From an uncultured bacterium (lineage in GTDB: Bacteria; Cyanobacteriota; Vampirovibrionia; Gastranaerophilales; Gastranaerophilaceae): a stretch of 32,649 bases of DNA. The stretch spans positions 1 to 32,649 of the forward strand of contig CACZSH010000036.1 of assembly GCA_902783785.1 (NCBI GenBank), read 5' to 3'. The notes below the pieces were generated by a model. It had not been told where the DNA came from. It saw nothing but the letters and a program-made list of their open reading frames with translations, and made no database searches. Of this stretch, positions 1 to 32,635 are shown piece after piece (position 1 is the first letter of the stretch; every line of letters begins with the position of its first letter). A program made the position numbers and the translations under genes.

Positions 1-558
1 AAGCATCTTTACTAATGGCCCAAATGTGTCAGGCACTAAAATTCTTCTATATACTCCTGACAATAATGATTGAACATTTGGTGATTTGTCTTCGTTAAAT
101 TTAGAAAATGTTCCATAGTACATTTTATCTACACCTTTAACATTTTCTGCAGCCATTGAATTTGCTATATATAAACCTTCACAAACTTCTCCTTCATCTT
201 TTGCATTATTTAACATCTCTGTCAATGCAGGAATTGCTTTTTCTCTCGCATTTACAAATAAATCTACCTTTTCTTGGTCAAATTGACAATAAGGTTTTTC
301 TTTTGTTGCTAAAATTGGTTTTTTGAATTCTCTATCTTTTGGTAATTCAAATTTATCTTCCTTCTTATCTGCTTTTTCTACAACATTAACTTCGTTTTTT
401 ACTTCAACTTTTTCTGATTTTTTTTCAAAAACATCTGTTTCAGGTTGGTTTAAATTTACTTTTGAAATCGGTGCTATCGGATTTTGAACAGCACTTTTAA
501 ACGCAAATTTTTGAAGAGGTTTTACACTCATAAAATTGTTGATTGAATTAATTTTCAT
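1..558 (-). CDS. Helical-repeat protein of unknown function, cut by the left edge of the window
   Basis: The frame is open from the ATG at 558 to base 1, giving 186 residues with no stop inside the window, so the C terminus is missing. The start is supported by a purine-rich ribosome binding site (AAGGGAAAAGGAA) just upstream. Residues 1-75 look like a low-complexity, charged leader with no hydrophobic signal peptide. It contains TDVFEKKS at 41-48. From about residue 85 the protein aligns by eye with the upstream neighbour at 588-1100: both share AIP.L..., YIA..MA, SKFNEDKSPNVQ, LSG.YR and FGPLVK. The body is predicted to be alpha-helical, perhaps HEAT/ARM-like. It is the last visible gene of a three-gene operon and lies 29 bp behind its paralogue. 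Function is unknown. Confidence 0.8.
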   Translation of the reverse strand, partial: MKINSINNFMSVKPLQKFAFKSAVQNPIAPISKVNLNQPETDVFEKKSEKVEVKNEVNVVEKADKKEDKFELPKDREFKKPILATKEKPYCQFDQEKVDLFVNAREKAIPALTEMLNNAKDEGEVCEGLYIANSMAAENVKGVDKMYYGTFSKFNEDKSPNVQSLLSGVYRRILVPDTFGPLVKML

Positions 559-5314: not shown

Positions 5315-6383
5315 ATGGAAATAAATATTATAAAAAATAAAATAAGTAAACTTAAGGAGTGTCTTTGACACGGAAAAACTTACACAAGACTTAAAAGAGA
5401 TTGAAAACAAACTCCAAAGTCCTGAATGCTGGTCAAATCAGACACTTGCAAACGAACTTGGACAAAATTCAAAAGAAATAAAAGAAACTCTTACAAACTT
5501 TACCCGATGGGAAAGTTTAGTTTCAGATGCAGAAATAGCCCAGGAATTAGAAGATGAGGAATTAATAAAAGAATCTGAAGAAAAACTAACTCAGTGCGAA
5601 AAAGAAATTGAAAGTTTTGAAATAAAACTCATGTTAAGCGGAGAATATGACGAAGCAAATGCCATTTTGACAATAAACGCAGGAGCAGGAGGAACTGATG
5701 CTCAGGATTGGGCAAATATGTTGCTAAGAATGTACACACGCTGGGGAGAAATAAAAGGTTATAAAACAGAATTATTGGATAAATCTGATGGCGAAGAAGC
5801 CGGAATAAAATCCGCAACAATAAAATTAACCGGAAAATATGCCTACGGATATGCAAAAGCAGAAAAAGGCGTACACAGATTAGTAAGATTATCACCTTTC
5901 AATTCAAGCAATAAAAGACAAACAAGTTTTGCTTCTCTTGAAGTTTCGCCAATAATTCCCGACTTTGAAAAGAAAATAATAATACCTCCAGAAGACCTTG
6001 AAATAGATACAATGCGTTCAGGCGGAGCAGGAGGACAAAATGTTAACAAAGTAGAAACAGCTGTTAGAATAGTCCATAAACCAACAGGAATAGTGGTTCG
6101 TTGTCAGCAAGAACGTTCTCAATTACAAAATAAAGAAAACGCCATGCAAATACTTGCATCAAAATTACTTGAAATAAAACAACAAGAACACGAAAAAAAA
6201 TTGGCAGAATTAAAAGGTGAAGTTTTTGACATAAATTTTGGCTCACAAATTCGTTCTTATGTCTTTCATCCATACAAAATGGTAAAAGATCATCGAACAA
6301 ATTTTGAAACAAGTGATGTAGACAGTGTTATGAATGGTAATATTGATAGCTTTATAGAAAGTTTTCTTAAAGCTAAGCAATAA
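5315..6383 (+). CDS. prfB: Peptide chain release factor 2, expressed by programmed +1 frameshift
   Basis: RF2 recognises UGA and UAA stop codons and triggers peptide release in the ribosome. Translation starts at 5315 and reads 17 codons to CTT TGA (5363-5368). A Shine-Dalgarno-like AAGGAG lies 3 nt before the slippery CTT, and the next base is C: this is the classical autoregulatory site. After the +1 shift reading resumes with GAC at 5367 and continues to the TAA at 6381-6383, for about 355 residues, close to the usual RF2 length. The codon-recognition loop SPF is present in [11 protein letters not shown], and the catalytic GGQ lies at 6030-6038. The frame change is regulatory, not damage. 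An internal ATG at 5631 would give only a truncated product. Confidence 0.96.
5351..5369 (+). promoter_or_regulatory. Programmed +1 frameshift site of prfB
   Basis: CTTAAGGAG TGT CTT TGA C. The in-frame UGA at 5366-5368 is preceded by the slippery CUU codon, with an internal Shine-Dalgarno (AAGGAG, 5354-5359) 3 nt before it. This matches the well-studied RF2 autoregulation signal: low RF2 slows UGA decoding and favours the shift. The internal motif differs slightly from the common AGGGGG form. Confidence 0.93.
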
Positions 6384-6453: not shown

Positions 6454-6480
6454 AAAAAAAAAACTCTCTTTCGAGAGTCT
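6454..6480 (-). terminator. Intrinsic terminator of the candidate small RNA (and of metH read-through)
   Basis: On the minus strand ACTCTC-GAAA-GAGAGT (6478-6463) has a 6-bp stem closed by a GNRA loop and is followed by about ten T (6463-6454). On the plus strand the trailing sequence is only moderately T-rich (CTACTTCTTTT), so use by prfB is possible but weaker. Confidence 0.85.
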
Positions 6481-6588
6481 ACTTCTTTTATATGTCCTAA
6501 TTTTTATTTAGTGTTATGTGTTATATGTTTAGGAGTTTATATGAGAGTAAATGTATTAGTGTTTTAACAACACTTTTAAAATCCACTC
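6454..6588 (-). ncRNA. Candidate small regulatory RNA of about 130 nt, Yfr1-like in layout
   Basis: A strong promoter and an intrinsic terminator define a transcript of about 130-135 nt with no plausible ORF. Read 5' to 3' on the minus strand it begins near 6586-6588. The 5' part can fold with AGAGT (6589-6585) pairing ACTCT (6548-6544), enclosing a hairpin AGTGTT-loop-AACACT (6574-6558). A mostly single-stranded middle follows, with the anti-Shine-Dalgarno stretch TCATATAAACTCCTA (6544-6530) and an ACA-rich run. A 6-bp stem TCCTAA/TTAGGA (6534-6529 with 6500-6495) may partly hide the CUCCU. The RNA ends with the GAAA-capped terminator hairpin. Cyanobacterial Yfr1 also places a CUCCU motif between a hairpin and its terminator, but it is about half this length, so homology is only a guess. 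Confidence 0.6.
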
Positions 6589-6592
6589 TTAT

Positions 6593-6621
6593 ATATTACT
6601 CTTAATATTTTTCTAAGTCAA
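6593..6621 (-). promoter_or_regulatory. Strong sigma-70-type promoter for the candidate small RNA
   Basis: On the minus strand TTGACT (6621-6616) and TAATAT (6598-6593) are separated by exactly 17 bp. The predicted start is about 6586-6588. It points away from metH into a gene-free stretch that ends at a terminator 130 nt on, which is why it is assigned to an RNA. Confidence 0.7.
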
Positions 6622-6794
6622 CAATTTGTTTTTATTATTTTTTGCAATTTTCCAAAACGCAATAATAGTGTCAAAAACACACTTTACAAAAGTTAACATT
6701 CTTTTTCTTAGGGCTTTATTTCGTTAAAAATTAAGAAATTAACATTCATTCAAAATATTCTTATAGAATATTAAAGTTTAAATCAGAATTCAGG

Positions 6795-9458
6795 TTAAAT
6801 CTTCATATTGTATTCATCAAATAGGCGTTTTTGTTCAGCTTTAAGATTTTTCAAAAATTCTTTATCTTTAGCAACAATCTTTTGTGCTACAACAACAGCT
6901 TGAGAGGCATCTTCTGTTTGCGCTACAATTCCGTTATATTTCGGAGCTATTTTTAGTGCTGTATGTAATTTACTTGTCGTAACGCCTCCTATCATTATTG
7001 CAGCTAATTTTTCTCCCGATTTTTCAAGTTGTTCCGCAACGGTTATCATTTCTTCCAATGATGGAGTTATAAGACCTGAAAGTGCTATAATATCTGCTTT
7101 TTCCTTTGTTGCTGCTTTTAATATATCACTACAGTTTACCATTACTCCCAAATCTATTACTTCAAAGTTATTGCAGGTTAAAATAAGATTTAAGATATTT
7201 TTCCCAATATCATGAACATCACCCTTTACGGTTGCAAGTACTATTTTCCCTAATTTTGTTTTTGAATTGTCTTTTTTTAGATATTGTTTTAAATAATCAA
7301 CAGCCTGTTTCATTATTCTTGAACTTTTTACAACTTGAGGTAAAAACATTTTGCCTTCGCCAAAAAGTTTTCCTATTTCGTTCATTCCATCCATCAAGTG
7401 TTTTTCAATAATTTCTAACGGAGAAAAATCCTTTAACGCTTCATCTAAATCTTGTTGCAAAAATTCTGCATTACCTTTGATTAGTGCATATTGTAACCTT
7501 TTTTCAACAGATTGATTTCTCCATTCCAGATTATCTTTTTTATGTGTTGATGTTGTATTATCAAGAGTTTGTGCATATTCTAAAAGTTTTTCTCCGGCTT
7601 CATCATTTCTGTTTAAAACAACATCTTCTACAAGAGTACGTAATTTAGGTTCTATTTCATCATAGATTTCAAGCATTCCCGCATTTACAATACCCATTTC
7701 AAGTCCTGCGTTTATTGCATGGTATAAAAACACACTGTGAATGGCTTCTCTTACTCTGTTCAAACCTCTAAAAGAAAACGATATGTTACTTATTCCTCCA
7801 GAAACCATTACTTGAGGGTATTTTTCTTTTACTAACTTGGTTGACTCAATAAACGATATTCCGTTAATATTATGTTCTTTTATTCCTGTTGCAAGCGGAA
7901 AGACATTGAGGTCAAAAATTATATCACAAGGTAAAATTTTAACTTTTTCAGTTAAAATTTTATAAGCCCTATCTACTATTTCAAGTCTTCTTTCCGTTGT
8001 TGATGCTTGTCCTTTTTCATCAAATGCCATAACAATCATTGATGCACCCAAGGATTTTATAAACGTTGCGTGCTCAATAAATTTTTCTTCACCCTCTTTT
8101 AAACTTATAGAATTAACAATTGCTTTTCCTTGAATACATTTCAATCCAGCCTCAATAACATTAAATTCAGAACTGTCAACCATTATAGGGACTTTTGCAA
8201 TATCTGGTTCTGATGCTACAAGATTTAAAAATTCAACCATTTCAGCTTTAGCGTCAATTAATGGCATATCAAAACTTATATCAATAATATTTGCACCGTT
8301 TTCTATTTGTTGACGAGCAATATTTAAAGCTTCATCATAATTTTTTTCCTGAATTAAGCGTGCAAACTTTTTAGATCCTGTAACATTTGTTCTTTCTGCA
8401 ACTATGGCAAATTTTTGATTTTCATTAAGAGAAAAAGGTTCAAGTCCTGTAAAAGTAGGCTTTGTTCCAATTTTAGGAATTTGTCGGGATTTATATTTTT
8501 TTACGGCTTCTGATATTGCTTTTATGTGTTCAGGGCTTGTACCGCAACAACCTCCGCAAATATTTACGCATTCTTTTTTTGCTAAATATGCATAACCTTT
8601 TGCCATATCGTCAGGTGTATCCGTATATTGTCCGAAAGCGTTAGGAAGTCCTGCATTTGCGTACAAGCTAATATAACAATCAGCTATTTTTGATAATTTT
8701 TCAATATGCGGTATCATATCTTCTATGCCAAGAGCACAATTTATACCGACAGATATTGGATTAAACGGTTTTATGCTGTAATAGAAAGCTTCTAAAGTTT
8801 GTCCTGATAATGTTCTTGCTGATTTATCGGATAACGTTACTGATACCATTATCGGAATATCTTTATTATATTTTTCTAGGGATTTCTTTATCGCAAACAG
8901 TGCAGCTTTGGCGTTTAATGTATCAAAAATAGTTTCTACAAGAAAAACATCTATATCATTTTCAACCATAACATCAACTTGTTCTGTGTAAACTTCAACA
9001 AGTTCATCAAATGTTATATCTCTAAAAGCAGGATCTTCAACTTTTGGAGATATAGAAGATGTTTTGTTCGTAGGACCTATTGAACCTGCTACAAAACGAG
9101 GTTTTTCCTCGGTTGAATATTCTTGTGCTATTTCTTTTGCAATTTTTATGGATTGAAAATTTAATTCTTTTACATAATTTTCTAATTCATAATCCTTTTG
9201 AGAAATTTTATTAGAAGAAAAAGTGTTTGTTTCAATTATATCTGCACCTGCTTCAAGATAAGCTCTATGAATATCTTTTATTACATCCGGTCTTGTTATA
9301 CTTAAAACATCATTATTCCCTTTTAAAGGAGTAGAACAATTTAGAAAAATTTCTCCTCTAAAATCTTCTTCTGTTAAAGTTCTTTTCTGAAGCATTGTTC
9401 CCATTGCTCCATCAAGAATTAAAATTTTTTCTTTTAAACTTTCTCTAAAACTTCCCAT
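6795..9458 (-). CDS. metH: Cobalamin-dependent methionine synthase, without the reactivation domain
   Basis: 887 residues. The enzyme transfers a methyl group from methyl-tetrahydrofolate through cobalamin to homocysteine. The homocysteine/zinc domain (1-325) has DGAMGTMLQ (16-24) and the zinc ligands C241 and C304-C305 in [10 protein letters not shown]. The pterin-binding domain is about 340-620 ([12 protein letters not shown]). The cobalamin cap and Rossmann domains are about 645-870, with the cobalt ligand H749 in DVHDIGKN. The roughly 330-residue C-terminal AdoMet reactivation domain of the long enzyme is absent; the protein ends naturally after the B12 domain. No cobalamin riboswitch is visible upstream. 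There is no Shine-Dalgarno before the ATG; TATCAT lies 9 nt upstream. Divergent from the gene at 9587. Confidence 0.95.
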
Positions 9459-9923: not shown

Positions 9924-10517
9924 TTAACCCCTAACGTAAATATCATCTAATGTTTTAGGTAATTCATTAGGAATATAATTTTGTAAATATCCTATAACTT
10001 CTTCAGGAGTTTGTGCTAAATAATAATAGTAAGAAGATTTTGTTTGCGCAAATTTTTCTAAAATTATTTGTTCAAAAAATTCAAATAAATTATCGTAGAA
10101 ATGATTTGTATTTAAAAATACTATGGGTTTGTTATTATATCCTAATATTTTTTGTACAATCATTTCAGAAACTTCTTCTAATGTTCCAAAGCCTCCTGGA
10201 AGTACAATTAATCCATCAGAAAGTTCGTCCATTTTTGCTTTTCTATCTCTCATATGTTTGGTTACAAAGTATTCATCATAAATGTTGTTATCTGAATGTT
10301 TACAAATTTTATCTAATTTTTCAGGTATAACTCCAATAATTTTTGCACCATATTCTTTTGCCGTCTTGGAAATTTCTCCCATTATTCCTAAAGATGAACC
10401 TCCATAAACAAGATTATATCCGTTTTTTGCAATTAATTCACCCATTTTTCTTGCTTCATCGTAATATGATTCTTCTAAACCATTACTTGCAGAACAAAAC
10501 ACACATATATTTTTCAT
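9924..10517 (-). CDS. LOG-family nucleotide hydrolase (lysine-decarboxylase-like fold)
   Basis: 197 residues. LOG proteins hydrolyse nucleoside 5'-monophosphates (in plants and some bacteria, cytokinin ribotides), releasing the base. Key motifs are MRDRK at 89-93 and PGGFGTLEE at 107-115, with the N-terminal Rossmann-like GG.S.G.MG. (39-47). Length is typical. It follows rnhA by 8 bp. The rnhA stop codon, the Shine-Dalgarno AGGAG and the LOG start are packed into 15 nt (10528-10514). That block is exactly complementary to the anti-Shine-Dalgarno stretch of the candidate small RNA. The bacterial substrate is not evident from sequence. Confidence 0.88.
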   Translation of the reverse strand: MKNICVFCSASNGLEESYYDEARKMGELIAKNGYNLVYGGSSLGIMGEISKTAKEYGAKIIGVIPEKLDKICKHSDNNIYDEYFVTKHMRDRKAKMDELSDGLIVLPGGFGTLEEVSEMIVQKILGYNNKPIVFLNTNHFYDNLFEFFEQIILEKFAQTKSSYYYYLAQTPEEVIGYLQNYIPNELPKTLDDIYVRG

Positions 10518-10525
10518 ATAAACTC

Positions 10526-11020
10526 CTATTCGTTTTTAAATCCTTCATCACATAAAAGATTTTCATTAGTACATGATGTTGTTGCTAACTGGTCACATCT
10601 TTCGTTGTATTCATGCCCGTTATGACCTTTAACCCATTCGTATTCTATTTTATGAGGCTTCATTGCTTCTATTAATCTTCTCCATAAGTCAACATTTTTA
10701 ACAGGACTTTTGCTTGCGGTTTTCCAATTCTTGCTTTGCCAATTTTCGAGCCATTTGTTTTTTATCGCATCAACAAGATATTTGCTATCTGAATACAAAA
10801 TCACTTCAGATGGTTTTTTTAAAGCTTCAAGCGCCACTATTGCCGCCATTAATTCCATTCTATTATTTGTAGTAAGTTCATATCCTTCTGTTAATTCTTT
10901 TTCATGATATTGTCCTTTTGAATCAACAAAAGTAAGAATTGCACCATAACCTCCTCTACCTGGGTTTGATTTGCAGGCTCCGTCTGTATATATCACAACT
11001 TTATTTTGTTTATCGTTCAT
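10526..11020 (-). CDS. rnhA: Ribonuclease HI
   Basis: 164 residues. RNase HI cleaves the RNA strand of RNA-DNA hybrids, removing primers and R-loops. All four acidic catalytic residues are visible: D13 ([11 protein letters not shown]), E56 (NNRMELMAA), D78 (LYSDSKYL) and D143 (ERCDQLA), plus the flexible His of [10 protein letters not shown] (H133). The length and the basic handle region ([14 protein letters not shown]) match the classical enzyme. The Shine-Dalgarno AAAGG precedes the ATG by a normal distance. It forms a tight operon with the LOG gene. Confidence 0.95.
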
Positions 11021-32471: not shown

Positions 32472-32554
32472 TGGGCAGGGGTGGATTCGAACCACCGTAG
32501 ACTCGCGTCGGCAGATTTACAGTCTGCTCCCTTTAGCCTCTCGGGCACCTACCC
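32472..32554 (-). tRNA. tRNA-Tyr (anticodon GTA)
   Basis: An 83-nt tRNA with the long class II variable arm expected for tRNA-Tyr. The anticodon arm is CAGACTGTAAATCTG with GTA in the loop, the T arm is GGTGGTTCGAATCCACC, and the acceptor GGGTAGG pairs with CCTGCCC with one G-T wobble. The discriminator is A. The CCA end is not encoded. It lies 9 nt after tRNA-Thr in the same direction, so the two are co-transcribed. Confidence 0.97.
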
Positions 32555-32563
32555 ATATTTAAT

Positions 32564-32635
32564 TGCCTTTGACGAGATTTGAACTCGTGGCCTCTCCCTT
32601 ACCAAGGGAGTGCGCTACCCCTGCGCCACAAAGGC
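32564..32635 (-). tRNA. tRNA-Thr (anticodon GGT)
   Basis: A 72-nt tRNA. The acceptor GCCTTTG pairs with CAAAGGC with discriminator A. The anticodon stem CTCCC/GGGAG holds TTGGTAA with anticodon GGT, and the T arm is CACGAGTTCAAATCTCGTG. CCA is not encoded. More genes of this tRNA unit may lie beyond the right edge of the window. Confidence 0.97.

Follow-up and report, generated by a model that had tools for sequence, protein, structure and literature searches.

A predicted small-RNA gene in the prfB–metH gap, a genus-restricted second copy of an sRNA found across a bacterial family

The prfB–metH locus and its conservation

Does the gap between prfB and metH hold a stand-alone small-RNA gene, and would such a gene belong with the cyanobacterial sRNA Yfr1? 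We examined the locus within the whole stretch of DNA analysed (32,649 nt, hereafter the window). On the minus strand, a sigma-70-type promoter, TTGACT-17-TAATAT (6593–6621), was read from the sequence, with the −35 element at 6621–6616, a spacer of 17 nt and the −10 element at 6598–6593. It was followed by an intrinsic terminator, AGACTCTC-GAAA-GAGAGTTT with a T tract (6454–6480), in which the stem-loop ACTCTC-GAAA-GAGAGT precedes ten T residues, the last at 6454. Direct reading of this strand thus confirmed the promoter and GAAA-capped terminator that a preliminary description had placed at 6454–6621. The transcript, with its start inferred from the promoter, would run from 6587 to 6454 (~134 nt), in line with the 130–135 nt and the lack of a reading frame proposed earlier: its longest frame was a GTG frame of 21 codons that is not common to the sRNA family described below, in which no frame is conserved. 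The neighbouring prfB is convergent and ends at 6383, and metH lies on the same strand as the sRNA with its stop at 6795.

The promoter by itself was not beyond chance in this AT-rich DNA, as 10 promoter-like sites were found against 9.6 expected in a 2-kb region (3 against 1.0 for terminator-like sites); the status of the gene was settled by conservation. In a second species of the genus (RUG14857, G001), the orthologue of the transcript was identical at 131/134 positions (97.8%), and the three that differ all lie in the apical loop of hairpin 1. Between the same two genomes, identity was 81% for the prfB coding sequence, 71% for the DNA after the terminator and 47% upstream of a conserved box (see below). 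The gene on the 5′ side differed, being metH in the window and gdhA on the opposite strand in G001 (names at the latter locus taken from translations), and prfB adjoined both copies. Slower evolution than that of the prfB coding sequence, whatever the 5′ gene, argues against both a metH 3′ UTR and a chance fold, and the comparison indicates strong purifying selection on the window copy in the two sampled species.

The promoter, 5′ hairpin, CUCCU core and terminator also recurred at the locus of a paralogue and across 33 genera, and the comparison with relatives that the preliminary description had named as its own refutation test therefore upheld it. The gene has its own promoter and intrinsic terminator, is intergenic, holds no conserved ORF and is conserved across genomes, as is general for trans-encoded sRNAs. 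Judged from sequence conservation, 6454–6621 of the minus strand is a genuine small-RNA gene, and the earlier proposal of a stand-alone sRNA with an anti-SD (anti-Shine–Dalgarno) region gains strong support from the near-identity across a changed 5′ gene and from the wide distribution of the family.

Elsewhere in the window, an AdoCbl-II (cobalamin) riboswitch scored above the Rfam gathering threshold (1945–2020, minus) upstream of the ORF 1084–1830 (no Pfam match), and the B12-dependent metH is in the window as well. Two adjoining tRNA genes lie at the window edge (32472–32635, minus).

An sRNA family in 33 genera

A paralogue in the same genome, found using blastn, adjoins ruvC (contig C95). 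It has the promoter TTGACA-17-GATAAT and the terminator CCGCCC-ATTC-GGGCGG, the latter of other sequence and in the same place as that of the window copy. The two loci also resembled each other over ~100 bp on the upstream side of the promoter, as far as a box TTTTGTAAAGTGT-N5-TNACACTATT (6664–6691, minus) that is common to the paralogue and many other genera. Plain blastn of 58 relatives gave clear matches only within the genus, a limit set by the short, AT-rich conserved core; it was the upstream box that exposed the family. Searched in 56 relatives, the box occurred mostly once per genome, and the same type of RNA gene lay downstream in 16 of the 19 matches. Within the GTDB family, a covariance model (R2) built from these box-associated RNA genes detected the sRNA in 181 of 239 genomes, representing 33 of 41 genera, and most carriers had one copy; these copy numbers are minima, and MAGs may collapse identical copies. 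Some genomes carried two family-type copies (L089 on G204:C25 and L152 on G204:C20). MAG contigs were also seen to end inside the sRNA (L150/L151 in G216 and L148/L149 in G141), as is expected if near-identical copies break assemblies, so that the true copy number is probably higher.

In the class sample, the sole R2 match outside the family was in G039 (family f6; E = 5e-4). The 19-mer GACCATTAGGATGCAGAAA, searched with up to one mismatch in 386 genomes of the phylum, was likewise present in the family and in G039; none was found in about 200 phylum genomes outside the class, and the reversed control gave zero. The G039 locus (contig C7, L145, minus strand ~1470–1600) is a shortened sister-family form having TTGACA, an AAGTGT-N7-ACACTA dyad, GAGACCATTAGGATGCAGAAA and a terminator, with no CUCCU region. 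A pattern match in Dorea had an unrelated context and was taken as chance. A mobile origin was rejected, as searches of plasmids, of phages and, by exact pattern, of viral contigs gave no match. Rfam searches at gathering and permissive thresholds (E up to 10) gave no relevant match to the sRNA, and the literature searched did not describe any sRNA from this lineage. The family is previously unrecognised, and no Rfam family covers it. Carried by three quarters of the bacterial family and marked by a 19-nt signature of near-perfect conservation, the sRNA is a likely core regulator; the covariance model is ready for annotation, and GACCATTAGGATGCAGAAA offers a concrete probe for metatranscriptomes.

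A cis-acting leader or riboswitch was also considered. The downstream neighbour, prfB included, was convergent in 46 of 54 loci by mechanical ORF calls, and the sRNA is therefore not a leader; nor was an Rfam riboswitch found at the site. Genes of the rsmG type were frequent convergent neighbours in related genera. On the upstream side, small-protein families (~80–140 aa) often lay divergently beside the sRNA (L063, L080, L081, L084, L095, L103 and others), and a shared regulatory region of these genes and the sRNA is possible.

The family promoter, TTGACA/T-16..18-nnnnAT, stood in the same place at nearly every locus for which the upstream DNA was complete. Many genera, though not all of them, have the upstream box, which starts 70–73 bp before the −35 element in most and 81 bp in one, and contains in the window a dyad, AAGTGT-N7-ACACTA (6666–6684, minus). 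A second such dyad coincides with the 5′ hairpin (6557–6575, minus), at about +12 of the transcript, and was present in nearly all homologues; where both exist, they are spaced by 107–110 bp (116 in one). The exact dyad occurred four times in the window's own genome, all at the two sRNA loci, suggesting a dedicated regulator. We take the box to be a putative transcription-factor site, and a regulator binding one or both dyads would control transcription of the sRNA. Two divergent sRNAs of genus g9 (L139 and L146) have one dyad only, about 90 bp before the core.

Conserved elements, candidate targets and proposed mode of action

The anti-SD/anti-start core CATATAAACTCCTAA (6529–6543, minus) was near-invariant in the family. 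All 23 representatives profiled contained AACTCCTA, and, for the C-rich core CAUAUAAACUCCUAA, AACUCCUA was likewise present in 23/23. The window transcript folded as hairpin, CUCCU region and terminator, better than 199 of 200 shuffles (MFE z = −3.3), so that the order of elements described earlier stood. The claim that the CUCCU region is mostly open was only half right: UCCUAA (6529–6534) was paired in all predicted folds with UUAGGA (6495–6500, minus), which lies 28 nt downstream. Both sides of this helix are almost invariant across the family, and because of this it has no covariation support, whereas five of the six pairs of the terminator helix showed compensatory two-sided changes. In the genus g9 sRNAs, UUAAGA replaces UUAGGA opposite CUCCUAA, leaving an uncompensated C-A mismatch.

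Conservation in the family was highest not in the anti-SD but in the near-invariant element GACCAUUAGGAUGCAGAAA. The G039 form keeps GACCAUUAGGAUGCAGAAA without CUCCU, suggesting that the ancestral function may have been something other than anti-SD pairing and that, as far as these sequences go, the 19-nt element may be the older part of the family. A small conserved peptide was rejected: although ATGCAGAAA itself hardly varies, the reading frame that follows it differs between members, ends after a few codons (MQK*, MQKT*) or enters the terminator. ATGCAGAAA is absent from the window copy.

The R2 scores were 76.8 bits for the window copy and 113.9 bits for the family-type copy on C95. Sequence comparison marks the window copy, found in two sampled species of the genus only, as a divergent, genus-restricted second copy of the family sRNA. 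It kept the promoter, box, hairpin, CUCCU core and terminator and lost the otherwise invariant GACCAUUAGGAUGCAGAAA, with AAAAAUUAGGACAUAUAAAA standing at the site of the family GACCAUUAGGAUGCAGAAAA. Compared with C95, it also lacks four bases (TATA) before UCAUAUAAACU, a loss that makes CATTTACTCTCATATAAACT (6534–6553, minus) contiguous. These 20 nt are the exact reverse complement of AGTTTATATGAGAGTAAATG, the translation start region of an HNH-type gene (MRVNAIS...), in both species (G000:C96 and the G001 orthologue). The predicted duplex of −33.4 kcal/mol was equalled by none of 1853 background windows, the best of which (−27.1 kcal/mol) was the start region of a LOG gene within the window; C95 with the same HNH-type message gave −25.8 kcal/mol. 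Since it was short-listed on the strength of this very match, the HNH-type gene is only a candidate target. It belongs to a tandem pair of HNH-type paralogues that share 39% identity (L032, 626–3301, minus), of which the upstream one has a different start region without the 20-nt complementarity.

A further candidate target is the start of the LOG/lysine-decarboxylase-like gene (ORF 9924–10517), where TAGGAGTTTATATG (10515–10528, minus) is an exact 14-nt complement of the core; its duplex (−27.3 kcal/mol) was the best partner in the window. Outside the sRNA, exact TAGGAGTTTATATG had only about five occurrences in 56 genomes. The pattern TTTAGGAGTT-N1-6-ATG was not enriched over the reversed control, giving no general anti-SD regulon by exact SD motif, and the genes matched in different genomes were unrelated, with no coherent regulon.

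Taking these results together, we consider it rather probable that the window gene, as a genus-restricted second copy of a family-wide sRNA, encodes a trans-acting regulatory sRNA that represses translation by start-region pairing, base-pairing over the ribosome-binding sites of mRNAs being the most likely mode of action from the sequences. The core CAUAUAAACUCCUAA would pair with messages reading (A)GGAGUUUAU-AUG over the SD and start codon, which would block ribosome binding, and the UCCUAA/UUAGGA helix would admit only those messages that match the open CAUAUAAAC portion as well. The conservation of AACUCCUA in every representative profiled, and of the 20-nt start-codon complement in both species, is in favour of pairing, whereas the predicted pairing of the CUCCU half of the core and the incoherent regulon speak against it. 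The loss of GACCAUUAGGAUGCAGAAA together with the 20-nt complementarity to the HNH-type message suggests target specialisation of the duplicate.

A stronger version of this idea is possible, if clearly less likely: the family would be an ancient, single-copy core regulator, ultraconserved in this bacterial family, with GACCAUUAGGAUGCAGAAA acting via a dedicated protein or RNA partner and the dyads via a dedicated regulator, and the duplicate would be neofunctionalised, repressing, without GACCAUUAGGAUGCAGAAA, one HNH-type gene by 20-nt start-codon pairing. In either case, the window copy offers a natural case of duplication and divergence, in which loss of an element and a new 20-nt complementarity are directly testable.

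Alternatively, the conserved UUAGGAUG might be a protein-binding site, e.g. titrating CsrA (RGGAUG) or serving a lineage-specific RNA-binding protein, with the CUCCU strand merely presenting UUAGGAUG in a hairpin. In favour of this, no stretch is conserved better than GACCAUUAGGAUGCAGAAA, which is also present in the CUCCU-free sister-family form, and the AGGAUG of the family element matches the core of the CsrA consensus. However, the family consensus contains a single GGA and CsrA was not found in many of the strongest-match carriers (G002, G007, G008, G011, G014 and others), on which grounds a CsrB/RsmY-type titrating RNA was rejected as a general explanation; the window copy, moreover, lacks the element and is still under strong selection. 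We regard a protein site as an improbable explanation of the locus, although GACCAUUAGGAUGCAGAAA of the main family may act through a protein other than CsrA.

Other readings of the locus and comparison with known sRNAs

The terminator sits in the metH–prfB gap on the metH strand, and the locus could in principle be no more than the metH 3′ UTR with its terminator, or a terminator shared by the convergent metH and prfB. This is very improbable, as G001 has the opposite-strand gdhA on the 5′ side and still keeps the promoter and transcript, the paralogue lies beside ruvC, and family copies occur in many other contexts. A plus-strand mini-gene (AGGAG-ATG, MRVNVLVF*) with incidental minus-strand features can be practically dismissed, for although the plus strand at the site reads TTTAGGAGTTTATATGAGAGTAAATGTATTAGTGTTTTAA, the paralogue reads ATG ATA TAG there and the mini-ORF has not been preserved across the family, unlike the minus-strand promoter and terminator.

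Yfr1 is an RNA of 54–69 nt in which an unpaired stretch of 16–20 nt holding ACUCCUCACAC lies between two stem-loops (PMC2190773). The window sRNA shares with it the order of 5′ hairpin, ACUCCU region and Rho-independent terminator (PMC2190773), as well as presumed anti-SD pairing; of the earlier description of the gene as Yfr1-like, this loose architecture and the ACUCCU hexamer stand. The closer resemblance does not. With up to two mismatches, the ultraconserved undecanucleotide ACUCCUCACAC of Yfr1 was not found at the sRNA, where the site agrees in 7 of 11 positions; the single match in the window (53–63) is fewer than expected by chance. The transcript is ~134 nt from its inferred start to the terminator, the linker is much longer than that of Yfr1 with UCCUAA paired to UUAGGA in all folds, so that the motif is half paired, and the synteny is different (guaB/trxA for Yfr1; prfB with metH or gdhA here, and ruvC beside the paralogue). 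The family sRNA has, in addition, the invariant GACCAUUAGGAUGCAGAAA and the upstream dyad box, and its signature was found in 0 of about 200 phylum genomes outside the class. Membership of the Yfr1 family, as an orthologue in a non-photosynthetic relative, is thus hardly credible. The window sRNA may nevertheless act as Yfr1 does, pairing through ACUCCU.

In Yfr10 and Syr5-type sRNAs, the full Yfr1 motif sits within a different structural setting (PMC6778093). The window sRNA resembles them in that the motif is partly structured and synteny poorly conserved, and differs in that the full Yfr1 motif, which is theirs, is absent from it.

Among Gram-positives, RoxS/RsaE and FsrA have unpaired C-rich stretches and an intrinsic terminator. 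No sequence homology to them was apparent, as judged from the Rfam scans only; the likeness lies in the C-rich CUCCU (with AACCCC in the family consensus), which is suited to cover a G-rich SD.
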